Shown here piece after piece: positions 14,322 through 51,755 of a DNA stretch of 64,000 bases (the stretch's first letter is position 1; each line of letters begins with the position of its first letter). The stretch lies in assembly GCF_024362805.1 (NCBI RefSeq), contig NZ_CP093299.1:248001-312000 (forward strand), written 5' to 3'. Source of the DNA: Salipaludibacillus sp. LMS25 (GTDB taxonomy: Bacteria > Bacillota > Bacilli > Bacillales > Salisediminibacteriaceae). A program made the translations under genes and the position numbers. Below the pieces are notes generated by a model. The model did no database searches. It was not told where the DNA came from and was given only the letters and a program-made list of their open reading frames with translations.

Positions 14322-14355
14322 TGTCGTCTCCTTTACTCGTCTCTGTCCTGTTTCA

Positions 14356-14511
14356 TTTATCACAAATAACCGTCCAAAAAACTCTCGCCACAAATTAGAG
14401 AGAAGATTAAACTATTTAGGCGTGAGATAACGGAGGCTAATATCCTAATTCATTCAACTACCAATCAGTGGGAGAAGAACGAAAGCTCCCACTGATTGGA
14501 GGTCGTTTTAT
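14356..14511 (-). repeat. Interspersed repeat, family B (copy B3), reverse orientation
   Basis: On the minus strand it reads ATAAAACGACC, hairpin CAATCAGTGGGAG / CTCCCACTGATTG, GGTAGTTGAATGAATTAGG, the second hairpin, then GACGGTTATTTGTGATAAA. It ends 34 bases upstream of the mscS start, inside an artefactual N-terminal extension of that frame. Confidence 0.88.
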
Positions 14512-20238: not shown

Positions 20239-20296
20239 TATCTGTTCGGTTTTTCTATAATGCTTTTCCTAATTGTAACATGAAGGATGTCTGCAT

Positions 20297-20453
20297 CATA
20301 AAGCTAAGCTTCAATCAGTGGGCGTTTTCCTTCATCCCCCACTGATTATTCGTTTAACTTGGGACCTTTAGGGGCAGTTTATCCCCCACCTAAACTTTCG
20401 ACCTTCTTAAGTTTTGAGATGGGGGTTTTACTGCCCCTTAAGAGTGGGATAAA
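20297..20453 (+). repeat. Interspersed repeat, family A (copy A3)
   Basis: A full-length copy downstream of luxS, with both hairpins and the GATAAA end. Confidence 0.88.
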
Positions 20454-20532
20454 ATGGATTTGAGACAGGTCAGCTTTTGCCACACCATCTATAAATCTGA
20501 AGACGGCCAGCTGCAACAGGAAAATTATACCC

Positions 20533-20914: not shown

Positions 20915-21475
20915 ATGTCCAAGAAACAACCTGTTCATTGTCACGTCGTTGAAGCCGCTGCAAGAACGTTATTAAAGGAACGTGGCGTAGAACTAGAAGC
21001 CATCGCACAAATCGTTTATGATATGCAAAGTGAATATAATGAGTCACTATCTATGAAAGAATGTTTGGAAAGTGTTGACGCAGTTCTAGAAAAACGAGAA
21101 ATTCAACATGCCATTCTTGTAGGCATTGAATTAGATAAATTAGCTGAACAGAAAAAATTATCTGAACCGCTTCAATCGATTGTTGAAATGGATGAAGGTT
21201 TATTTGGAGTTGACGAAACAATTGCCATCGGTTCAGTGTTTGGTTATGGTAGTATCGCCGTTACCACATTCGGGTATCTCGATAAACAAAAGATCGGTAT
21301 CATTAAACAACTTGACTCAAAACCCGGTGATCGTGTTCACACGTTCCTAGATGATTTAGTCTGTAGTATAGCAGCCAATGCTTCCAGCCGACTTGCTCAC
21401 CGAATACGTGACCGAGAAGAAGACTTACGTGAAGACGAAATTAAGCATCGTGATGAAGAAGAACGTATTGGCTAA
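20915..21475 (+). CDS. PgpA-related protein (YutG-like)
   Basis: A 186-residue soluble protein related to phosphatidylglycerophosphatase A. It carries the family segments LFGVDETIAIGSVFGYGSIAV, TTFGYLDKQKIGIIKQLD and HTFLDDLVCSIAANASSRLAHR. The family dephosphorylates phosphatidylglycerophosphate, but the Bacillus YutG branch lacks membrane helices and its role is unproven. The C terminus is strongly charged. The start follows AGAGGAG. Repeat A4 begins 5 bases after the stop. Confidence 0.87.
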   Translation: MSKKQPVHCHVVEAAARTLLKERGVELEAIAQIVYDMQSEYNESLSMKECLESVDAVLEKREIQHAILVGIELDKLAEQKKLSEPLQSIVEMDEGLFGVDETIAIGSVFGYGSIAVTTFGYLDKQKIGIIKQLDSKPGDRVHTFLDDLVCSIAANASSRLAHRIRDREEDLREDEIKHRDEEERIG

Positions 21476-21480
21476 TGATC

Positions 21481-21638
21481 ATTAAACGAACCTTCAATCA
21501 GTGGGAGTTTTCCTTCATCCTCCACTGATTGTTCGTTTAACTTATCGAACCTTTAGGGGCAGTTTATCCCCCACCTAAACTTGTCGATCTTCTTAAGTTT
21601 TGAGGTGGGGTTTTACTGCCCCTTAAGAGTGGGATAAA
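21481..21638 (+). repeat. Interspersed repeat, family A with a family B-like left end (copy A4)
   Basis: It starts ATTAAACGAACCTTCAATC, the form seen in family B, then continues with hairpin 1, the family A hairpin 2 and GTGGGATAAA. It looks like a hybrid of the two families. Confidence 0.85.
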
Positions 21639-21715
21639 CTTAAGCTACCTTCTTGATTCTAGTTCATAACGGTGGTAGGATTTTGTTCAATGAATCTTTA
21701 TCAGGAGATGGAAAA

Positions 21716-22485: not shown

Positions 22486-22561
22486 GTTCCGTTAGCTCAG
22501 TTGGGAGAGCGCCACCTTGACAGGGTGGAGGTCACTGGTTCGAGCCCAGTACGGGACACCA
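22486..22561 (+). tRNA. tRNA-Val (anticodon GAC)
   Basis: A 76-base cloverleaf. The acceptor stem GTTCCGT / ACGGGAC has one G-U pair, the D arm is AGCTCAGTTGGGAGAGC, the anticodon stem CCACC/GGTGG encloses TTGACAG, the T arm is CTGGTTCGAGCCCAG, and CCA is encoded. Anticodon GAC reads GUC/GUU (Val). Confidence 0.95.
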
Positions 22562-22606: not shown

Positions 22607-22707
22607 GTTTAAATTAACAAAAACACCATTACCCTATTTTTGGGACCAACGAGAAAAAATATTGATTTTCAGAACAAATGTTTGTATGTTAATAGTGAGG
22701 TGATTAC

Positions 22708-22917
22708 ATGACAGACTCAGAACGTAAAGTGTATCGTATTGTATTTAATCATAATCATTTAAAAGGACAGCACACTAAATATAGCAACTTACTTAAATTC
22801 ACAGGTAAAACGCCCAAAGACTTGGACAAGGCACTTGATGCACTCGTGGAAAAGCAACTCGTCTGGTGGGATAAGGACAAAAGTAAGGATGTGGCGTTGA
22901 GGGAGAAACAGTGGTAA
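22708..22917 (+). CDS. Small uncharacterised protein before the toxin remnant
   Basis: A 69-residue protein (MTDSERKVYRIVFNHNHLKG...) with a helix-rich, winged-helix-like pattern (KYSNLLKFTGKTPKDLDKAL). The start follows GAGGTG at good spacing. The next frame overlaps its stop, so the two were probably translated together. I do not recognise a family; its place directly upstream of toxin sequence suggests it belongs to that cassette. Confidence 0.6.
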   Translation: MTDSERKVYRIVFNHNHLKGQHTKYSNLLKFTGKTPKDLDKALDALVEKQLVWWDKDKSKDVALREKQW

Positions 22918-23718
22918 GTGTTTTCTTTGACTTGTTACAAAAGCGATCAGCAGAGATTAAATCAACGACTGATCCAAGGGAGAAAGAACTGGCGAGACTT
23001 GAAGCTGAGCAAGCGGCCATCGAAGCAGAGGAAGCACGCCTAGTTGAACAGCAAGCGTAGAAGAGGACAAATCGTGGTGGTCGAAAACAGTCTCAGCTGT
23101 GGTGGACACGGTGGAAAAAGCAGTGGATACGGTTGGCAATGCCGGCGTCAAGTGCGTATAATTATGTCACAGCGAACCCCACCGCAAGCCTCTCAACGGT
23201 CGTTGATTTCGTCCCAGTCGTCGGTAATCTAAATGCTGGTATCGAATCTGTCACAGGTCGGCGTTTAGAACCGTGGGAGCGCGCGGTCCCTGGTGGTGCT
23301 ATTCTCGGCGGAACAGCAGTTAAAGGTGCTAGTTTGCGAAGAATACAGATAATGTTGGATATATGGTAATAACTTCGGAAATGTAACTAAACAGACTGGA
23401 AACACTCCAAAAAATGTATTTAAACACGAGATATTAAAAAAAGATTATAAGTACACTCAACGATACGGCACTAATTCTAAGAAAGAGCTAATAGATGGTA
23501 GAATCCGTTATTATGATTCTGTCCAACCTGCCAAAAAACCAGGTGAAATGATCGGACGAAGAAAAGTACAAGAGTTAAATCCTAATACAGGACAAGTAAG
23601 AACTTGGCATGAAACGTTAGGTAGTGGAGGGGAAATTAGACAAGTAAGACCGCAACTCGGGCCTGACAAAACTCATTATCAATTTGATATAAATGGAAAC
23701 TACATAGGAAAGTGGTGA
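22911..23718 (+). pseudogene. Broken polymorphic (LXG-type) toxin gene
   Basis: A coding stretch from GTG 22911 (SVFFDLLQKRSAEIKST, then Glu/Ala-rich) shifts frame near 23058 to EEDKSWWSKTVSAVVDTVEK. It shifts again near 23133 to NPTASLSTVVDFVPVVGNLN and GRRLEPWERAVPG, a pre-toxin linker typical of LXG/WXG-secreted toxins. After a further break near 23370 comes the toxic tip, ending KTHYQFDINGNYIGKW at 23718. The N-terminal secretion domain is absent. The tip class is not identified. The intact immunity gene follows at once. Confidence 0.75.
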
Positions 23719-24652: not shown

Positions 24653-25771
<1,119 letters not shown>

Positions 25772-25873: not shown

Positions 25874-26712
25874 CTATGAAATGCCCACTTTTAATAATGT
25901 TTCTAAATCTTCTTTACTATAATAGTAGTTTTCATTACAAAAATGGCCATCCGTATCTATCATATCTCGGATTTCTTCGCTTCCTAGACTGATAATAGCG
26001 TTCGAGATTCTATCTCTAGAACACTCACATCGGAATTGAACTGGGATTTTTTCAAGAATAGTCATATTTTTTTCACCAAGTAATTGTTTAAGGATGAATT
26101 CTGGTGTTACACCTTGCCCTATCATCGAAGGAATGGAAGGTGTCGGATGGTCTTTTCTTCAGTATTTGGCAACAGCTGAATAATAAAGCCTCCAGCTGCT
26201 TGGATAGTAAAGTCCGTGTTTACAAGGACACCTACACCAACAGAGGAAGCTACTTGTTCGGAATGCAATAAATAAGAAGCAAAATCCTCACCGATTTAAC
26301 CGGATGCAATGGGAACCTGCCCAATAAAGGGTTGATTTAGACCAATATCTTTGGTTACGGAAATAACTCCATTTGTTCCCACTGATGATTTAATATCAAG
26401 TAAACTCAGCTGATTTAGTCCTGCATCCGCATGGGGATTTGAAACGTTCCCTCTCACTTCACCCTTAGCATTTGCATCAACTAAGGTGTTCCCAATTGGG
26501 CCACCACCATTCATTTTTATGGTTAGTTTTTCTTCCCCTTTTAGCATGATGCCAAGTATAACTCCTGCTGTCATAGCACGTTCCAGAACCACAGTACTGA
26601 CCACTAGCATATCATGGCGGCGCCTTGCTTCCTCGACCGTTTCGGTTTTAATCGCGGCATCTGCACGGACTTGCTTGTTATGAGCAATTGCTTTTACTAT
26701 ATAATCCTTCAC
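25874..26712 (-). pseudogene. hslO: Broken Hsp33 redox chaperone gene
   Basis: The N-terminal part (MKDYIVKAIAHNKQVRADAA ... LTIKMNGGGPIGNTLV) ends at a TAA where the family has Glu (ASG-stop-IGED). Reading resumes as [10 protein letters not shown] and [11 protein letters not shown], then shifts frame near IPSMIGQG. The zinc domain keeps FRCECS, but the second pair has lost one Cys (DGHFCN where CxxC is expected). One nonsense codon, one frameshift and a lost ligand make the gene dead. Confidence 0.9.
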
Positions 26713-26729
26713 TTTAATCTCTCATTCTT

Positions 26730-26945
26730 TTAATCTTTTTTTAACTTGTGGACTTTTGCTGGTGTTACATCATTCCCAAGTGAATCCTGTATCTTCATCC
26801 CTGAGAAAGTATGAAGAACTTGTCCTCGTATTTCACGTAAATAATCTTCTCTAAGCACTTGCTGCTCGACTTTTTCAGCATTTGTCAAGCCTTCTTCACG
26901 CTGCTTTTTCGCTAATTCATTAATTCGTTGCAGAAAATCAATCAT
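26730..26945 (-). CDS. DUF896 (YnzC/UPF0291) family protein
   Basis: A 71-residue protein, MIDFLQRINELAKKQREEGL..., with the family core LREDYLREIRGQVLHTFSG and GNDVTPAKVH. Members are small cytosolic helical-hairpin proteins; in Bacillus some belong to the LexA regulon. The frame is open to 27017, but ATG at 26945 gives the family N terminus. It is intact between two pseudogenes. Confidence 0.88.
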   Translation of the reverse strand: MIDFLQRINELAKKQREEGLTNAEKVEQQVLREDYLREIRGQVLHTFSGMKIQDSLGNDVTPAKVHKLKKD

Positions 26946-27003
26946 GTATTTCACCAACCTTCTTTTCATATTTACTCTATAATTTCTGTATGGAAGCAAA
27001 GTT

Positions 27004-27470
27004 TCATATTTCTTCAAGGTCAGTAAATGTCGCTACACCTCGTTTATGAATGGCTTTTTTGAAACTTTCTGCGTCTGCTTCTGCAACTGTTAACAAGTCA
27101 CAAATATCCGTACACACCCCAACAGTATGATTTTTTTAGTTTCAGCCAAATCTGTTTGAAAGAATGCATTATAGTTCGCTTTAGACGTATAAATTAAATG
27201 GTCATTATCTTGATTACCTTGAAACCAATCATATAATTCTCCATATGCCTTTGTACCTACACTATTATGTGATGGCCATAATTCAAAGTGTGAGTCATTT
27301 GATTGGTGGGCATCCATTGTTACAACAACTATCTCCCCCTCTGATAAAAACCTTTTCGCCAATACCTTAATATAAGGCACTACTTCTTGTGCAAGTTTAC
27401 CCGCAGTTAATGCTCCATTATCAGCCACAAAATCATTACTAAGTCCAACTTATCTAAACAATAAATACAT
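27004..27470 (-). pseudogene. pncA: Broken nicotinamidase gene
   Basis: Isochorismatase-fold nicotinamidases convert nicotinamide to nicotinate. The frame starts 8 bases after pncB with MYLLFR, meets TAA, and continues VGLSNDFVADNGALTAGKL, where Gly replaces the catalytic Asp of VDxxNDF. It contains VVTMDAHQSND and shifts frame just before VCTDICDLLTVAEAD, which holds the catalytic Cys. A premature stop, a frameshift and a lost active-site Asp show inactivation. It sits as the last gene of the NAD cluster. Confidence 0.88.
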
Positions 27471-27477
27471 TCTTACC

Positions 27478-28941
27478 TTATAAGGGTACAGATTTTTGGA
27501 TTTGAATTTTTGCTTCCTCTATGTTTTTCATTTTATTATTCCAACAAGCCTGACTTAAATCCACAGGATATTCTGCTGGATTCAATGATCGTTTGTACTC
27601 TATCCATAAAAGATTAAGTTGTTGATGTACATAGGATTGAATCTCTTGGACCCGTGGACATTCATACACAAGTGTCCCATTGTGGAAAATATCTTCGTGC
27701 AAATCTTTGGCCGTAAAATTTGTGACTAAATTTCCAATGTACGTGTGCACAGGATGAAACATGTGAAGTTTGGTTTCGTTTTCTGGTTGTTCGTTGGCTA
27801 AAGCAATATAATCTCCTTCTGATTTTTTAGTATGATTGTTAATAATACGGTAAACTTTTTTTATTCCTGGTGTCGTGACTTTTTCTGGACTGGAAGAAAT
27901 CTTAATGGTATCGGTCATCTGTCCATTGTCATCTTCAATGGAGACCAGTTTGTACACTGCACCTAATGCCGGCTGATCAAAAGCAGTAATTGCTTTGGTA
28001 CCAACTCCCCAAGCATCAATTTTCGCTCCTTGTGCCTGTAAGCTCATAATGGTATATTCATCGAGATCATTTGAGGCATAGATTTTAGTGTCAACGCATC
28101 CTGCTTGATCTAATAATTTTCTTGCTTCTTTAGATAGATAAGCCAAATCTCCACTATCTAACCGAATACCTACAAAATTTATATTGTTACCTAGTTCTTG
28201 GGCGACTTTGATCGCGGTAGGCACACCTGATTTTAGCGTGTCATAAGTATCCACTAAAAAGACACAGTTTTTGTGACGCTTTGCGTATTTATGGAAAGCG
28301 GTGTATTCATCTCGATACGCTTGAACAAAGGAATGAGCGTGCGTTCCTGAAACAGGAAGATCAAATCGCTTTCCTGCTCGAACATTACTTGTGCCAGAGA
28401 AACCACCAATATAAGCAGCTCTTGTCCCCCATAATGCAGCATCGAATTCATGTGCGCGTCTTGTTCCAAACTCTAAGACAGGTTTGTTACCTGCAACTTG
28501 TTTGATTCGAGAGGCTTTAGTTGCGATGAGAGTTTGATAATTTACGATATTTAATAAGGCCGTCTCAACGAGCTGCGCTTCGCCTAAAGGTGCTTCGATA
28601 CGCAAGATGGGCTCGTTACCAAATACAACTTCCCCTTCTTTCATGGCACGAACAGTTCCTGTAAAACGTATAGTTCGCAAAAATGCCACATAGTCTTCTC
28701 CATAGCCAATTTCTAGTAAGTAATCCAAATCGCTTTCAGAAAAATGAAACGCTAGAAGGTAATCAATAATCCGTTCTAATCCAGCAAAAATAGCATAACC
28801 GTTACCAAACGGCAATTTTCTAAAATACAAGTCGAATACAGCTTTTTTGGTATGAATGTTGTCTTCCCAATAAGCTTCTGCCATATTAATTTGGTACAAG
28901 TCCGTGTGCAGGGCGAAGCTATCATCCAAATACTTGGTCAT
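27478..28941 (-). CDS. pncB: Nicotinate phosphoribosyltransferase
   Basis: Converts nicotinate and PRPP to nicotinate mononucleotide in NAD salvage. The 487-residue sequence has LHTDLYQINMAEAYW at the N terminus, the signature EFGTRRAHEFDAALWGTRAA, FSGTSNVRAG and the phosphate-binding GIRLDSGDL. It is intact, with start site AGGAGG. It follows the HD gene on the same strand after a 250-base gap and precedes the broken nicotinamidase, so nicotinate from food or from another amidase would be its substrate. Confidence 0.95.
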   Translation of the reverse strand: MTKYLDDSFALHTDLYQINMAEAYWEDNIHTKKAVFDLYFRKLPFGNGYAIFAGLERIIDYLLAFHFSESDLDYLLEIGYGEDYVAFLRTIRFTGTVRAMKEGEVVFGNEPILRIEAPLGEAQLVETALLNIVNYQTLIATKASRIKQVAGNKPVLEFGTRRAHEFDAALWGTRAAYIGGFSGTSNVRAGKRFDLPVSGTHAHSFVQAYRDEYTAFHKYAKRHKNCVFLVDTYDTLKSGVPTAIKVAQELGNNINFVGIRLDSGDLAYLSKEARKLLDQAGCVDTKIYASNDLDEYTIMSLQAQGAKIDAWGVGTKAITAFDQPALGAVYKLVSIEDDNGQMTDTIKISSSPEKVTTPGIKKVYRIINNHTKKSEGDYIALANEQPENETKLHMFHPVHTYIGNLVTNFTAKDLHEDIFHNGTLVYECPRVQEIQSYVHQQLNLLWIEYKRSLNPAEYPVDLSQACWNNKMKNIEEAKIQIQKSVPL

Positions 28942-29192
28942 AACACTTTCCTCCTAAGTAACAAAAATTCAGCTTGGACTTCCTCTGAGAAAGGACATTG
29001 AAATATTGAATAAATCTTTATACGTGTTTGTTTACTAAATTCAGGAGAAAGCCTAAGGAAATTAGACAAAATCGTGTTTTTATACATATAACATTTCAAA
29101 ACACTCCACTCCCCAAACACTTGCTGATACAACAATCAACAGTTGTGTTCATGAAAATATGAAAACGGAAAGTAGATTCCCCTCTCTATTTT

Positions 29193-29771
29193 TCAGGAAT
29201 TAGTTTCATTACTTTTTTGTAATAGATCTTTTGCAAAGTCAACAAGTCTATGTGCTTCTTCTGTCCGAAGCATATTTACATTCAATGCATTAGGGCCTAG
29301 ACGAAAGCGATCTAGTGCGTCAGCATCCTTGAAAATCTTATATAGCAGTACGCCCCGTTCTCTGACAACAGGCGAATTTGTAATTTCTGACAAACCAAAC
29401 GAATCATCCTGATCATGGTAAGAGGTGATGTAATAGGTTTGCACATCGTAGGGTAATTCGTGTTCACGACAAAAATCTTTGTAATACTCCGCCGCACGAA
29501 TACCATGTCCTTTATCAACCCCATCATTAAGGCGACGCGAATCATGGAAAGCAGCCGCCATTCCCAGTGTATCCTTTTCCTCATGACTCAGACCTTTTTG
29601 ATGTCCTATGAGGAGTGCTAGTAGCAGCACGCGAGCACAATGATTTTTAGTATGCAATTCACTATCCGGAAGCCAAAACTCGACATTCTTATCCATAAAT
29701 GTATACCATTGATCATAAGACTTTTTGATTGGTTGACAGTCAGACTCATTTAGAACATTTGTTAGAAACAC
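29193..29771 (-). CDS. HD-domain hydrolase
   Basis: A 192-residue HD phosphohydrolase. Metal ligands are His44 (TKNHCARV), the pair His76-Asp77 (AAFHDSRR) and a later Asp in FKDADALDRFR. The fold is that of small nucleotidases or phosphodiesterases; the substrate is unknown. It starts with GTG after AGGAGGGG, 39 bases downstream of the sirtuin gene, so the two are co-transcribed. Context suggests a nucleotide or ADP-ribose-related substrate, which is inference only. Confidence 0.85.
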   Translation of the reverse strand: MFLTNVLNESDCQPIKKSYDQWYTFMDKNVEFWLPDSELHTKNHCARVLLLALLIGHQKGLSHEEKDTLGMAAAFHDSRRLNDGVDKGHGIRAAEYYKDFCREHELPYDVQTYYITSYHDQDDSFGLSEITNSPVVRERGVLLYKIFKDADALDRFRLGPNALNVNMLRTEEAHRLVDFAKDLLQKSNETNS

Positions 29772-29810
29772 CTTTCATCCCCTCCTATGTTTTTCTATAG
29801 TTGAATCAAC

Positions 29811-30656
29811 TTATTTCATATACACTAGTTGCTGTAACACTTCGGCGATATCCCCATCGATACCAATAGATTTAGCAGAAATTACATCTGGAATATAAAG
29901 CTCCCGCCCCTTATTAAGAGTAATATAGGTAGCATTTTCCTCACGATTAGTTAAATTCATAAATGGAGCTTTAATTAATTGATTTCTTGCGCCTACACCT
30001 AATTCCAGCAGAACCAACCTTTTACCATGAACGTTCTCGATAAAACCCTGATAGGCTTGATAGCTCGCTTGCCAGGACTCACCCTTTAGAAAATGTCGAT
30101 CGACTTCGAGATGAACCTGCATAGGACTGTCACACTGGGAACACTTAGGAATAAGAGCCGGAGGAACCTCTCCATTCTCTTGTTTTTGGGCCATCTTGCT
30201 CAATATGTCATCGCCTGGATAAATTTGATTATGACAACCATTCACACATTGGAGATTCCGACAATTTCCTTCTACTTCGAAGAGTCGTTCCTTCGGAAAT
30301 CCTGCCTGTCTGAAATGATCATCTATATTAGAGGTAACAACAAAATAGTTTTTATCCTTCACCAGTTCATAAAGATTCTTCATAACTGGACTGGCTTCCG
30401 TTTTGTATAAAAAGTAGTCGTACATCCGGCTGAAAAATGCCCATTTTTCTTCTTGGGAGGGATAGTGATAAAAGCATCCTTGTATGATACTGTGAAAACT
30501 ATACTTTTCACGGAAATCTCCAAAATGTTCCCGAAATGATGAGTTATCTGCAAAAATATGAATTCCTTCCGAAATAGAGAGGCCGTTACTTGCGCCGATA
30601 ACAATCCCGTCAGCCTCTTGAATTTTTGTTAAAACCTTACTATATTTCTCTATCAT
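29811..30656 (-). CDS. Sirtuin-like protein, class M type, with Glu at the catalytic base position
   Basis: Sirtuins use NAD to remove acyl groups or transfer ADP-ribose. The NAD loop is GASNGLSISEG, the Asn/Asp motif VTSNIDDHF (Asn110, Asp112), and zinc Cys are C-x3-C (QCVNGC) and C-x2-C (KCSQC). Where classical sirtuins have HG and SirTM proteins have QG, this one has FEVEGNC (Glu129). The length is 281. ATG at 30656 follows GGAGG; the longer frame to 30668 has no site. It lies 245 bases downstream of a paralogue at 30902. Confidence 0.82.
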   Translation of the reverse strand: MIEKYSKVLTKIQEADGIVIGASNGLSISEGIHIFADNSSFREHFGDFREKYSFHSIIQGCFYHYPSQEEKWAFFSRMYDYFLYKTEASPVMKNLYELVKDKNYFVVTSNIDDHFRQAGFPKERLFEVEGNCRNLQCVNGCHNQIYPGDDILSKMAQKQENGEVPPALIPKCSQCDSPMQVHLEVDRHFLKGESWQASYQAYQGFIENVHGKRLVLLELGVGARNQLIKAPFMNLTNREENATYITLNKGRELYIPDVISAKSIGIDGDIAEVLQQLVYMK

Positions 30657-30762
30657 GTGATCCTCCATCCTTATCTAAATTCGATACAAATTCCGAAGTA
30701 CTCTTGCAATACATGCATCCATCGTAATTCCTTATTTTTTTATGAATAGTAGTTGCGGGCTT

Positions 30763-30829
30763 GCCTTTATTAGTGGCGAACTAATATAGCGTCTAGCAAG
30801 CTATACCATTTGCCACTTACAACAAAGGC
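30763..30829. other. Long imperfect hairpin between the two sirtuin genes
   Basis: GCCTTT / AAAGGC, AGTGGC / GCCACT and TATAGC / GCTATA nest around an 8-9 base loop. There is no T run on either strand. It may be a processing site or attenuator controlling the downstream sirtuin, HD and pncB genes. Confidence 0.5.
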
Positions 30830-30901
30830 CGATTAAATTTGCTTTAATCAGAATCAAAAGCTAATCTTCATTGTTCATGTGGTTGAGTCTTGATGATCAT
30901 G

Positions 30902-31786
30902 TCAAACCGCACCTTTTTTCGTTTCTTTTTGCTGTTCAGTCAGAGTATCTCGCAGTACTTGCGCTATATCTTCATTAACGGCGAGCCCCTTATCCTTCAG
31001 TTCCCCAGGCAGTATGTTATGCTCCGGATTTGGATTGATGGTAATGTAGTATGCATTCGGCCAGCTATGAGTCATATTCCAGAAAGGTTCTTTTATGAAC
31101 ATCGGAGTCATTAGACCGACACCTAACTCTAAAAAGAGAACTTTCTTATGTTGATTTTCCAAAAGAAACTCACGATATTTTTTATGCTCATCTCTAAATT
31201 TGGCTCCTTCCAAAAATACAAAGGAACGTACCCAAAGTTCCATAGGGCCGCCGCACTCAGGACATTTAGGAACCATGTGGGATGGGATTCTTGTACCTTC
31301 AATATGGGCACACAATTCCTTTGCCTGTTCCGTATAAGGATAAATACCATCATGACAAGGACCAGAACACTGTAAATATGTCCAGTTACCCTGAATAGCA
31401 CTGACTTTTTCCTCTGGGAATACTTGTGAGAACTGAGTGTCCTGATTTGTCGTAAGAATATAATAGTCTTTACCACTGAGAATTTGATATAAATCCTTAT
31501 AAGGTTGGCCTGTAGGGACCTCCGCTACGAAGTTGATTAAAGTGGCAAGGTATGCCCAGCGTTCTTCCTCAGTGCGGAATTTATAGTAAAACCCTCCAAA
31601 AATACTGTCAATCCCATATTCTTGCGCAAATATGTTAAAATGCTTACGGAAATTTCCATCATCTCTGTACCAGTTATATCCGGCAGCCGCAGACATGCCG
31701 GCAGCACCACCAACTACAATCGCCTCAGCTTCTTGAATTTTTTGCAATAATGTATCTATGTTTTCTTGATATAGTTGTGATATCAT
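30902..31786 (-). CDS. Sirtuin-like protein, class M (SirTM) type
   Basis: The NAD loop is VVGGAAGMSAAAG, followed by LTTNQDTQF (Asn114, Asp116), then AIQGNW with Gln132 at the catalytic position and zinc Cys 140, 144, 175 and 178 (YLQCSGPC, KCPECGG). Gln in place of His and the FLELGVGLMTPMFIK C-terminal segment match SirTM proteins, which in other Firmicutes are ADP-ribosyltransferases acting on a lipoylated GcvH-like protein. No macrodomain, GcvH-L or LplA2 is nearby. The start follows AGGAGG. It is divergent from the HxlR gene. Confidence 0.86.
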   Translation of the reverse strand: MISQLYQENIDTLLQKIQEAEAIVVGGAAGMSAAAGYNWYRDDGNFRKHFNIFAQEYGIDSIFGGFYYKFRTEEERWAYLATLINFVAEVPTGQPYKDLYQILSGKDYYILTTNQDTQFSQVFPEEKVSAIQGNWTYLQCSGPCHDGIYPYTEQAKELCAHIEGTRIPSHMVPKCPECGGPMELWVRSFVFLEGAKFRDEHKKYREFLLENQHKKVLFLELGVGLMTPMFIKEPFWNMTHSWPNAYYITINPNPEHNILPGELKDKGLAVNEDIAQVLRDTLTEQQKETKKGAV

Positions 31787-31957
31787 ACTTTTTTTGTCCT
31801 CCTAGAAATTTCTTCATTGTTAAAAAACGTTACCTTAATATAGCAACTCAACCAAAACCATTAGTAGATTTGAGAGTGTATTATATTTTTTATTATGTTT
31901 GAACACTCCTTTACTTGAATTTAAATGTATTATATAGTCAATATAGAATCGCAAACA

Positions 31958-31982
31958 AGTATGCACTTTTTCGACGCATACT
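31958..31982. promoter_or_regulatory. Inverted repeat in the hxlR/sirtuin divergent promoter (likely HxlR operator)
   Basis: AGTATGC (31958-31964) and GCATACT (31976-31982) form a perfect 7-bp inverted repeat spaced by 11 bases, 25 bases before the hxlR start. The same AGTATG...CATACT pair is kept at 34478-34502 in a decayed copy. Autoregulation and control of the sirtuin cluster are inferred. Confidence 0.6.
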
Positions 31983-32003
31983 ATCTAGGAGGATAGTGTA
32001 ATT

Positions 32004-32366
32004 ATGAAAAAATCGAAAGTTAATGTTGCTGACAATCAAGAGACTTTTTTTGGCTATACACTTTCTATTATTAATGGTAAATGGAAATTGCTAATTATTT
32101 ACTATTTATCCCAAAATGGCGCAGTACGCTATAATGAACTTCAGCGTATGATTGGTAAAATAACTTATAGAACTCTTAGTTCGACATTAAAGGAAATGGA
32201 GAATGATGGTTTAATTCACCGTGAGGAATATCCACAAATCCCCCCAAAGGTTGAATATAGCCTTACTGAAAAAGGGCAAACTCTTTGGCCTCTTATCCAA
32301 GAAATGTGCCAATGGGGAGAACATAATAAGGGAAAAACAGATACGCTGAATGGAGGAATGGATTAG
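32004..32366 (+). CDS. HxlR-family transcriptional regulator
   Basis: A 120-residue winged-helix repressor/activator with the family pattern YTLSIINGKWKLLIIYYLSQ, RYNELQRMIGKITYRTLSST, LKEMENDGLIHREEY and VEYSLTEKGQTLWPL. HxlR proteins often sense electrophiles or aldehydes through a conserved N-terminal Cys. That Cys is absent here; the only Cys is C-terminal (EMCQWG). It is divergent from the sirtuin cluster with an inverted repeat between, and has a strong terminator. Confidence 0.92.
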   Translation: MKKSKVNVADNQETFFGYTLSIINGKWKLLIIYYLSQNGAVRYNELQRMIGKITYRTLSSTLKEMENDGLIHREEYPQIPPKVEYSLTEKGQTLWPLIQEMCQWGEHNKGKTDTLNGGMD

Positions 32367-32389
32367 AAAGAAGTATAGATCTCTAAGAA

Positions 32390-32434
32390 AAAAAGGTATA
32401 ATACCTCAATATTCGAGGTATTATACCTTTTTTG
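32390..32434. terminator. Strong bidirectional-type terminator after hxlR
   Basis: AAAAGGTATAATACCTC pairs perfectly with GAGGTATTATACCTTTT across a 6-base loop, with T runs on both strands. Confidence 0.9.
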
Positions 32435-32530
32435 ATGTTTTAATTTTATCCCACTATTAAACCATAAAAATACAAATAACATAACTGTTAATCGTAAACT
32501 TTTCCATTTAAAAGAAAACGTTGTTTTTGA

Positions 32531-32971
32531 TCATGTGGCAGTTAACGGATTCTGTTGTTTAATCTCTTTTATTGATAGATTTAAACTATAGTTCCCATAA
32601 TCGAGAATACTATTAAGAAGAAGATTCAATTGTTCTTGGGATTCAACTTTTATTTTCAAATGGTAACAGCCTTCACCCGATACTCGATGAGCTTCAACTA
32701 CCTCATGTCGATTATCAATAAAACGTATAAACGAATCATGGTTAGCTGTTTTCATATAGATAATGACAAAAGCTGTAAAGGTTAATCCTATTTTTATTTC
32801 ATCTATTATTAGAGAGTAGGCTTTAATTACACCACTATCCTCAAGTTTTTTAATACGACTCCCTACCGCCTGTCCCGTCATATGAATTTGTTCACCTAAG
32901 TCTTTCCATTGAATACGTGAATTTTCCGATAGTAACCGCAGGATCTGAAAATCAATGTTATCTAGTTCCAT
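32531..32971 (-). CDS. Lrp/AsnC-family transcriptional regulator
   Basis: A 146-residue regulator with an N-terminal HTH (DNIDFQILRLLSENSRIQW ... GQAVGSRIKKLEDSGVIKAY) and a C-terminal RAM ligand-binding domain (VSGEGCYHLKIKVES). It is transcribed divergently from the isochorismatase-like gene at 33093, the usual arrangement for a local regulator and its target. The ligand is unknown. Confidence 0.92.
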   Translation of the reverse strand: MELDNIDFQILRLLSENSRIQWKDLGEQIHMTGQAVGSRIKKLEDSGVIKAYSLIIDEIKIGLTFTAFVIIYMKTANHDSFIRFIDNRHEVVEAHRVSGEGCYHLKIKVESQEQLNLLLNSILDYGNYSLNLSIKEIKQQNPLTAT

Positions 32972-33092
32972 AATAAATTCCTTTCACCATGAAATGATTT
33001 AATATAAAAGTGTTTCATCAAAGTATCGATAGAAATTAAGATATTGTATATCATTATACTTGTAATAAAAACTTTTTGATGAGGTGGATTAA

Positions 33093-33647
33093 ATGAGTAC
33101 AGCATTAATCATTGTGGATATACAAAACGACTATTTTCCAAATGGGAAGATGGCGTTAAGAAATCCTGATAAGGCAGCCGCTAACGCTTCTAAAGTTCTT
33201 GCGTGGTTTAGACAAAATAACAAAGATACTATTTTTCATGTTCAGCATATCGCGAGTAATCCGGAGTTAGGTTTCTTCCTTCCGAATACAGATGGGGCTG
33301 AAATACATGAAACTGTTCTACCAATTGAACACGAAAACATTATCGTGAAGAATTTCCCTAATAGCTTTATGAAGACTAAGTTAGAAAGAAAATTAAGAGA
33401 AAAAGATGTAACTAAGGTAGTAGTTGTAGGTATGATGACACATATGTGTATTGATGCAACAGTTAGAGCCGCAGTGGATTTAGGCTTTGAAACTACACTT
33501 ATTGAAGATGCATGTGCAACAAGAGATTTATCTTATCAAAATAAAATGGTTCCCGCTGAACAGGTTCATTATGCATTTGTCAGTGCACTTGACAGTATGT
33601 ATGCTAATGTCATTTCGACCGAGGACTTCCTCAACAAATCCCTGTAG
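33093..33647 (+). CDS. Isochorismatase-family cysteine hydrolase
   Basis: A 184-residue hydrolase with the catalytic triad of the family: Asp in IIVDIQNDYF, Lys in VKNFPNSFM and Cys in GMMTHMCIDAT. Family members include nicotinamidases and other amidases; the pattern here is closer to the general cysteine hydrolase group (cis-peptide GMMTHMC) than to the pncA remnant at 27004-27470. It could still replace the broken nicotinamidase. The start follows GAGGTGG. Confidence 0.88.
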   Translation: MSTALIIVDIQNDYFPNGKMALRNPDKAAANASKVLAWFRQNNKDTIFHVQHIASNPELGFFLPNTDGAEIHETVLPIEHENIIVKNFPNSFMKTKLERKLREKDVTKVVVVGMMTHMCIDATVRAAVDLGFETTLIEDACATRDLSYQNKMVPAEQVHYAFVSALDSMYANVISTEDFLNKSL

Positions 33648-34439: not shown

Positions 34440-34560
34440 TTAGAACGTATTATATAGTGGATATATACCGACAAACAAGTATGTACTTTATTTACTCATA
34501 CTATCATTAAGGATAGTGAAATTATAAAAAAATTCAAAATTACAGTGTAAGCTGTCTAAT
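34440..34560 (+). pseudogene. Remnant of a second hxlR gene and its promoter
   Basis: Sequence from GTATTATATAGT through ACAAACAAGTATG, CATACTATC and AGGATAGTG to ATTATAAAAAAATTCAAAAT parallels 31925-32025 base by base. The start ATG has become ATA and the frame is lost soon after. The inverted repeat AGTATG (34478-34483) / CATACT (34497-34502) survives. It is clearly a degenerated duplicate of the hxlR control region. Confidence 0.75.
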
Positions 34561-46205: not shown

Positions 46206-46363
46206 TTATAAAACGAACCTTCAATCAGTAGAGTTTTCGTTCTTCTCCCACTGATTGGTAGATAGTGAAGCAAGACATTAGCGGCCGTTAGCTCACGCCT
46301 ATATAGCTCTCTCTCATCTCTATTTTCAGGCCGGCGTTTTTCGGACGGTTATCTGTGATAAAA
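46206..46363 (+). repeat. Interspersed repeat, family B (copy B7)
   Basis: A full-length copy: ATAAAACGAACC, hairpin 1 with a decayed left arm, the second hairpin (CTCACGCCTATATAG ... CTCTATTTTCAGGC) and GACGGTTATCTGTGATAAA. The rest of the gap between glf and the next frame (46047-46500) shows nothing else. Confidence 0.85.
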
Positions 46364-46500
46364 AAATAAGACTGATATAATTAATCCCCTTAAACAGGGA
46401 ATAAAAAGAACGCAGCTTAAATTTTGTTGAGACAGTAGCCCTTTCTTAATTAAACGAAATTAGTCCATCTAGACTCGTACTTATTACTACCTATCGTTAG

Positions 46501-51580: not shown

Positions 51581-51755
51581 CGCGCTTATAGATCCGTACC
51601 TATCATGCCATGATTTAGTCATTTCCTCAGTTTCCTTTAATTAACGTCATAAGATTTTCACAAATAAACACCACTCTATTCGTTATGCATGCTAAAATAC
51701 AAGTGTCTATCGTATCGATGACTTTTCGAAAAAAGCATTAAGGGAGGTACACATT

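Follow-up and report, generated by a model that had tools for sequence, protein, structure and literature searches.

A putative mobile, HxlR-controlled sirtuin cassette with local NAD salvage genes and no macrodomain in Salipaludibacillus sp. LMS25

Background

What function is served by two sirtuin genes that are encoded together with an HD-superfamily protein and enzymes of nicotinamide adenine dinucleotide (NAD) salvage, next to a divergent regulator of the HxlR family? This arrangement, here termed the cassette, lies in a stretch of 64,000 nucleotides of the Salipaludibacillus sp. LMS25 genome (NZ_CP093299.1, positions 248,001 to 312,000; hereafter the window), where five minus-strand genes, namely sirA (30902-31786), sirB (29811-30668), the HD gene (29193-29771), pncB (27478-28941) and a frame-disrupted pncA-like gene (27004-27470), are divergent from hxlR on the plus strand (32004-32366). 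SirTM chemistry frees nicotinamide, and nicotinamidase (PncA) together with nicotinate phosphoribosyltransferase (PncB) recycles it. A first-pass annotation of the window, made from its sequence only, had placed and named these six genes, and their open reading frames (ORFs), orientation and the broken state of pncA were all confirmed.

According to PMC11490716, class M sirtuins (SirTM) have no known target to date apart from GcvH-L, and the targets and physiological role of other SirTM systems have remained elusive. We propose, with somewhat more confidence than doubt, that the cassette may be a horizontally moving, HxlR-controlled thiol, sulfur and copper-stress module that is built on a SirTM-like ADP-ribosylation circuit and carries its own NAD recycling. 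The existence of the cassette, its transfer, its operator, its two sirtuin types and the absence of a macrodomain are supported by comparative sequence evidence; from these we infer that SirA would act as writer on a new target, with SirB as its partner and HD or SirB in clean-up. Such a cassette offers a compact and testable system, with a conserved operator for tracing the inducer and a Gln/Glu sirtuin pair to dissect.

Recurrence and linkage of the cassette genes

The locus set comprises 28 loci from a scan of genome contigs with SirA as query, two plasmid loci and the window, giving 31. Because this set was chosen via SirA, only the other genes count as evidence of linkage. Gene content was scored as best alignments spanning at least 80% of the query plus shorter pieces, under manually chosen identity thresholds and with some loci stopping at contig ends; an alignment of this length is no proof of an open frame, as the split hsp33 in L050 and the split pncB in L006 show. 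Counted in this way (at least 80% plus shorter), the 31 loci hold sirA 28+3, sirB 29+1, HD 20+5, HxlR 24+0, pncB 14+2, pncA 10+3, mnmA 14+0, DUF896 6+6, hsp33 4+2, iso 18+0 and lrp 18+0. The recurrent order is HxlR, sirA (one or two copies), sirB, HD, pncB and pncA, often extended by DUF896, hsp33 and a second mnmA. Only L018 carries SirA without SirB. The search for co-occurrence across genomes that the first-pass annotation had suggested thus found the gene order in Bacillaceae, Paenibacillus, Sporosarcina and others, and its presence in other genera excludes an adjacency confined to LMS25.

Linkage can also be assessed in an order-level sample of 397 genomes that was not selected on SirA, in which the HD family (E<=1e-30) occurs in four genomes and strong SirB matches (E<=1e-130) in five. 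All four HD genomes fall within the five SirB genomes, with HD adjoining or overlapping SirB; the chance of this is approximately 5e-9 when calculated by hand and ignoring kinship. The four other cassette genomes of this sample probably correspond to L008, L010, L013 and L028, such that linkage is shown and no new species are added. SirA itself was found in one of 60 genomes searched, our own. In a phylum-level sample, HD relatives (E<=1e-12) occur in 11 of 398 genomes, our own included; in three of the ten others that were inspected the closest relative is 36% identical, and no sirtuin is present in the stretch in any of the three.

sirA and sirB together form the most constant part, while HD, NAD salvage genes and the HxlR operator are typical of Bacilli-type loci and of the Sporomusa locus L029. 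Three of the four clostridial-type loci (L023, L025-L027) have an Rrf2-type neighbour (by family grouping, with Pfam on one), and L027 alone among them holds an HD piece, 40% identical. As a separate observation, four sirtuin genes stand in a row at L027:3045-6962 and three at L025:7968-10686, with a divergent Rrf2-type regulator alongside.

Values of pN/pS, determined against up to six loci, are 0.07-0.31 for HxlR, sirA, sirB, HD, pncB, mnmA, lrp and iso; given these values and the gene order recurring in other genera, the cassette genes are not chance ORFs. In the LMS25 genome sirA, sirB, HD, pncB and mnmA are under purifying selection, whereas pncA, hsp33 and ccdA have decayed, which points to ongoing erosion of the cassette copy here.

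Horizontal transfer

The cassette mnmA (24653-25768, minus strand), coding for a tRNA 2-thiouridylase, is a second copy that shares 86% identity with the cassette MnmA of a Paenibacillus and 83-87% with the cassette versions at four loci outside the window, versus 69% with the chromosomal MnmA of LMS25. The latter is 79-94% identical to those of five species of the same genus and 78-79% to those of two genera of the same family. Two sister genomes (G001 and G005) lack the cassette-bearing stretch at this locus (alignments above 150 bp): sister alignment reaches window position 23,358 (G001) or 22,715 (G005), beside a tRNA-Val gene (22486-22561), and resumes at 51,647, which places the cassette within an island of approximately 28 kb. 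No integrase was present among ten island ORFs scanned. On these comparisons the cassette evidently moves horizontally, occurring on plasmids and in an island.

Two types of sirtuin

The first-pass annotation had called both sirtuins SirTM-type; SirA is SirTM-like, whereas for SirB the description is not supported. SirA has no Pfam match, and its family was placed through a 170.8-bit match to Streptococcus pyogenes SirTM (5a3a). It has the window AIQGNW at the catalytic position and keeps the equivalents of Asn118 and Arg192; the QG pair is found in 120 of 120 homologues, these being the best 120 of 1268 matches and hence close relatives. SirB, which matches PF02146 with 31.4 bits (cut-off 24) and 5a3a with 137 bits, has neither the catalytic Gln nor the Arg of class M and is also without GVGx[NT]TP. 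EG replaces QG in 119 of 119 homologues (the best 120 of 5528 matches minus one fusion, hence close relatives), and all 26 aligned SirB rows show an ASNG loop and EG and are without the Arg of position 192. SirB retains the Asn; its residue for Arg192 is Glu, with Ala or Met in three rows of clostridial type, and GVGxRNQ stands in most rows in place of GVGx[NT]TP.

An AF2 model of SirB (pLDDT 90) has 5a3a as its top Foldseek match (TM 0.90), and SirB is thus predicted to fold still as a SirTM. According to PMC4518038, mutation shows that Asn118, Gln137 and Arg192 of SpySirTM are needed. By analogy with these published mutants, SirB should be devoid of SirTM-type transferase activity. With EG at the catalytic site and no partnering arginine, SirB appears to be a distinct partner and not a second SirTM.

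Phylogenetic analysis recovered a SirA clade (41 rows; support 100/98) and a SirB clade (30 rows; 100/100), their union having support of 94/75. Nesting of SirA and SirB within the macro-linked SirTMs, of which 16 of the 16 rows shown carry [NT]TP, is supported at 95/90, and grouping of the other QG-type rows as one clade is borderline rejected (p-AU 0.047). The cassette lineage therefore likely lost a macrodomain. On two Lactobacillaceae plasmids (L052:7902-10074 and L053:7899-10089), a SirA-clade gene stands ahead of a SirB whose C-terminus carries a Cupin_5 domain (Pfam on L052); these SirBs share the SirB signature, and no HxlR, HD or pnc relative is present in the stretches examined. A natural SirB-SirA fusion (P0241) occurs as one metagenomic protein. 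Given the separate clades, the plasmid pairs and the fusion, the sirA-sirB pair seems to be old and nearly inseparable, and SirB evidently constitutes a new type of sirtuin that is conserved.

Absence of a macrodomain and the HD protein

The macrodomain and GcvH-L genes that usually accompany SirTM had been reported missing from this locus by the first-pass annotation, and the genome as a whole bears this out, having no PF01661 match and, apart from a sub-threshold match inside a 438-aa frame, one canonical GcvH only. Using as blastp queries eight macrodomain proteins of related loci identified by Pfam, we found a macrodomain gene at none of 29 cassette loci. Among 26 loci from more distantly related sirtuins, the same type of search found one at 19, namely 13 of 20 phylum-sample and six of six order-sample stretches, the former representing 20 of the 22 non-own genomes with a SirB-profile match. 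Four of these 26 (L100-L103) carry HG, group with canonical sirtuin in the tree and are not SirTM, such that the proportion among the others is 19 of 22. Minimal SirTM/macrodomain pairs also lack GcvH-L, as described in PMC11490716, and the missing GcvH-L hence bears on the extended operon only.

The HD protein scores 18.6 bits to PF01966, below the cut-off of 22, and H43, H75, D76, H88, H118 and D150 are invariant in 15 aligned homologues. Its confident helical model (pLDDT 89) has similar Z scores to 2pq7 (13.1), SidE/Dup phosphodiesterases (11.1-12.6) and exopolyphosphatase (12.3), with no Foldseek match at E<=0.001. By metal-ligand pattern and predicted fold it is best described as an HD-superfamily hydrolase; since these near-ties across HD groups fall in the uncertain range for helical proteins, we name no activity. 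Comparison of its sequence with solved structures gave three matches at E 0.35-1, which were taken as chance.

A conserved operator and its targets

An exact inverted repeat, AGTATGC-N11-GCATACT (31958-31982, minus strand), lies in the gap between hxlR and sirA, where it overlaps or adjoins a sirA -35/-10 pair read by eye as TTGTTT-N18-TATAAT. It was found through shared 10-mers combined with an arm search, a simple 8+8 palindrome rule having missed it. The window contains two matches at up to two mismatches versus 0.11 expected; the second, with two mismatches in its arms (34478-34502, minus strand), is followed by DNA that resembles the start of ccdA and aligns at 72%, across 395 columns, with a relative's operator-ccdA stretch, without an open ccdA. 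The operator stands near HxlR in 23 of 24 HxlR-bearing loci, the exception (L031) being a fragmentary locus. The genome search, made with a wider pattern (up to three mismatches), took in 24 of 30 cassette loci bar L011 and L019, leaving out L016, L023, L025, L026, L027 and L031, and it found the operator in 22 of 22 cassette genomes or records (one to four sites each), in none of seven sister genomes, and not at all with a reversed-pattern control. The stretches of L023, L025-L027 and L031 contain no operator site. Over its 29 genomes or records, sisters included, the genome search gave 40 sites in total. HxlR (PF01638, 112.4 bits) would be the ligand of this operator.

Further targets include nadD (L012, with a remnant in L051), ccdA (L005, the genome of L006, and L030, with pieces on a Mesobacillus plasmid) and a gene for an MBL-fold hydrolase (L019, L021 and L022). 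On the Mesobacillus plasmid, the operator precedes a csoR-type/copZ/copA run and, behind sirA remnants, metA. One further site, in G824:C74, has three mismatches and no assigned target. With thiol, sulfur, copper and NAD genes as its targets, the operator probably responds to stress from copper, polysulfide or thiol-reactive agents, in line with the stress switching that the first-pass annotation had postulated.

The regulator itself differs from those near related phylum-sample loci, where six of six HxlRs have an N-terminal Cys. In the 24 cassette HxlRs it is absent (in L013 a Cys occurs solely within a long extension upstream), and one C-terminal Cys is kept in 23 of the 24, that of the window included.

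NAD salvage genes

PncB is assigned with 909.5 bits to NF006697 (cut-off 776) and has no close paralogue in the LMS25 genome. The largest open piece of the local pncA is 27090-27428; relatives hold intact copies, of which that of L005 matches PF00857 with 87.7 bits. In L012, intact nadD (144 bits) and nadE (383 bits), both above the cut-offs of TIGR00482 and NF001979, separate HxlR from sirA and are preceded by their own operator. In combination with the pncB/pncA adjacency, this makes the salvage route complete in L012, and we consider these two genes the strongest support for local NAD recycling suggested by the comparisons. L029 has nadE and a partial nadD approximately 2.4 kb upstream of sirA, together with a further pncB at 44% identity, and L051 has remnants. 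That the sirtuin system is regulated and recycles NAD for itself had likewise been put forward in the first-pass annotation, and this recurrence supports it.

Proposed mechanism and alternative explanations

In the mechanism that we propose, HxlR would bind the operator heading the sirA-sirB-HD-pncB-pncA run. On induction, SirA would use NAD+ to ADP-ribosylate a target other than GcvH-L, freeing nicotinamide, which PncA and PncB, with NadD and NadE from the host or the cassette, would convert back to NAD+. SirB would transfer no ADP-ribose; as SirA's partner it may bind NAD, ADP-ribose or the target. Clean-up of the product or the modified target, the role of the macrodomain in related SirTM systems, may fall to the HD enzyme (or SirB). 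The cassette would thereby put an enzyme in the eraser's place and encode a NAD-consuming signalling enzyme along with the pathway that rebuilds its substrate. A bolder version, in which the sirtuin fold has been split into a QG writer (SirA) and a glutamate-based enzyme (SirB) that hydrolyses or re-routes the ADP-ribose mark and which, with HD, NAD regeneration and a thiol/copper HxlR switch, forms a self-contained macrodomain-free cycle, strikes us as distinctly doubtful.

Several observations weigh against the proposed mechanism. GVGx[NT]TP is altered in SirA to GVGxMTP (GIGxMTP in one row), and GGAAG stands at the position of GIGAG in 5a3a. PncA scores 40-44 bits (two copies) against a nicotinamidase equivalog cut-off of 174. 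HD is present in no form at six of 31 loci, and the SirB-SirA fusion is a single metagenomic sequence. The four clostridial-type loci carry sirA and sirB as a pair but have no HxlR, no operator and no pnc genes, and the NAD and HD parts are accordingly seen as lineage additions to the pair. With regard to redox sensing, the cassette HxlR is without the N-terminal Cys of the YodB type, and thiol or copper neighbours occur at only a minority of the cassette loci (3-7 of 30, versus 0-1 of 26 control loci). This contrast is weak because the control loci come from other taxa; the operator evidence is independent of it.

A different account, which we judge unlikely, is that the sirtuins catalyse deacylation, another sirtuin reaction or plain NAD hydrolysis, with SirA and SirB removing an acyl or sulfur-containing group and HD hydrolysing acyl-ADP-ribose. 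Deacylating sirtuins free nicotinamide too, so pncA and pncB would fit equally well, and relatives carry a deacetylase annotation. However, at the position of the catalytic His of deacylases SirA has Gln, in all of the 120 best matches of 1268; conversion of Gln137 to His in SirTM abolishes all activity according to PMC4518038, and SirTMs are apparently the sole sirtuins with transferase activity alone, as stated in PMC11490716. If the cassette served NAD salvage only, with the sirtuins as regulators or hitchhikers and vitamin B3 salvage as the selected function, the pncB gene, the only close copy in the genome, and the nadD and nadE genes that join in some relatives would be accounted for; yet pncB is above threshold in just 16 of 31 loci versus 30 for sirB, and the operator precedes sirA also where pncB is missing, making this the least probable of the readings considered here.

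Anti-phage defence, in which SirA and SirB would deplete or modify NAD or ADP-ribose on infection and the salvage enzymes would restore NAD, is very unlikely in our estimation. SIR2 domains are present in defence systems, and the cassette is patchy, mobile and found on plasmids and in an island. Against a defence role, no PADLOC model matched any of five proteins (SirA, SirB, HD and two Lactobacillus relatives; E<=0.01), the operator targets are thiol, copper and NAD genes, the SirB profile gave 41 pattern matches in viral contigs with none confirmed, and SirA had one distant match (31%) in 50,697 phage records. A phage origin of the cassette was rejected on these last two results, that is, no confirmed SirB in viral contigs and one distant SirA phage record.

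Further features of the locus and island

Beyond the six genes of the first-pass annotation, the unit includes the operator at 31958-31982, the island borders, the second mnmA and four further genes. A DUF896 gene (26730-27017, minus strand; PF05979, 85.9 bits) is a cassette member in some relatives, and hsp33 (25874-26712, minus strand) is disrupted, with open pieces at 26296-26712 and 25874-26125. On the other side lie lrp, encoding an Lrp/AsnC regulator (32531-32971, minus strand), whose distance to the cassette varies among loci, and, divergent to it, iso (33093-33647, plus strand), encoding an isochorismatase-family cysteine hydrolase. Intergenic gaps of 233 and 251 bp interrupt the run between 31786 and 27478, most relatives having narrower ones, and the number of promoter-like sites in 26000-33200, 24, equals that expected by chance (24.1).

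The island (23400-51600) also holds a GH3 glycosidase, a LytTR/GHKL two-component pair, a UDP-galactopyranose mutase, an MBL-fold protein and an Imm30 immunity protein. Just beyond its border, where the sequence is shared with both sister genomes, lies a gene for a CueP periplasmic copper-binding protein (PF21172; 51756-52295). Interspersed repeats of approximately 155 bp (20296-20455 and 21473-21643) have dozens of matching places in G001 and G005; 14355-14511 and 46206-46366 match a single common site per sister stretch and may represent another repeat. A repeated segment at 22671-22913, with several matches in the same genomes, overlaps a 69-aa ORF (22708-22917) that has no Pfam match.

Comparison with known systems

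No description of the cassette arrangement was recognised in the open-licence PMC text, and one may exist elsewhere; it appears to be a variation on SirTM systems, in which SirB is a novelty. The individual parts have known counterparts. Going by PMC4518038 (Rack et al. 2015) and PMC11490716, SirA shares with class M sirtuins the family, the Asn118, Gln137 and Arg192 equivalents and the zinc cysteines, and an oxidative-stress link is reported for known SirTM systems; HxlR genes also lie near six of 20 related phylum-sample loci. While known SirTM systems have a Zn-macrodomain, GcvH-L and LplA2, the cassette is without macrodomain and GcvH-L and adds an EG-type second sirtuin, an HD hydrolase, NAD salvage genes and an HxlR lacking the N-terminal Cys. 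The regulatory arrangement resembles that of Bacillus subtilis YodB (HxlR/DUF24), as presented in PMC8063818, in its HxlR domain, divergent gene and inverted repeat at the neighbouring promoter; YodB has Cys6, whereas the cassette HxlR has no N-terminal Cys and, in 23 of 24 cases, one C-terminal Cys. Compared with HD hydrolases of known groups (2pq7, exopolyphosphatase/GppA, HD-GYP and SidE/Dup-type domains), the cassette protein is near-tied among them. PncB of the cassette and NadD and NadE of L012, all above their cut-offs, correspond to steps of Preiss-Handler salvage (PncA-PncB-NadD-NadE); unlike in that pathway, the genes are embedded in a putative sirtuin operon with an HxlR operator, and PncA falls below the nicotinamidase cut-off.

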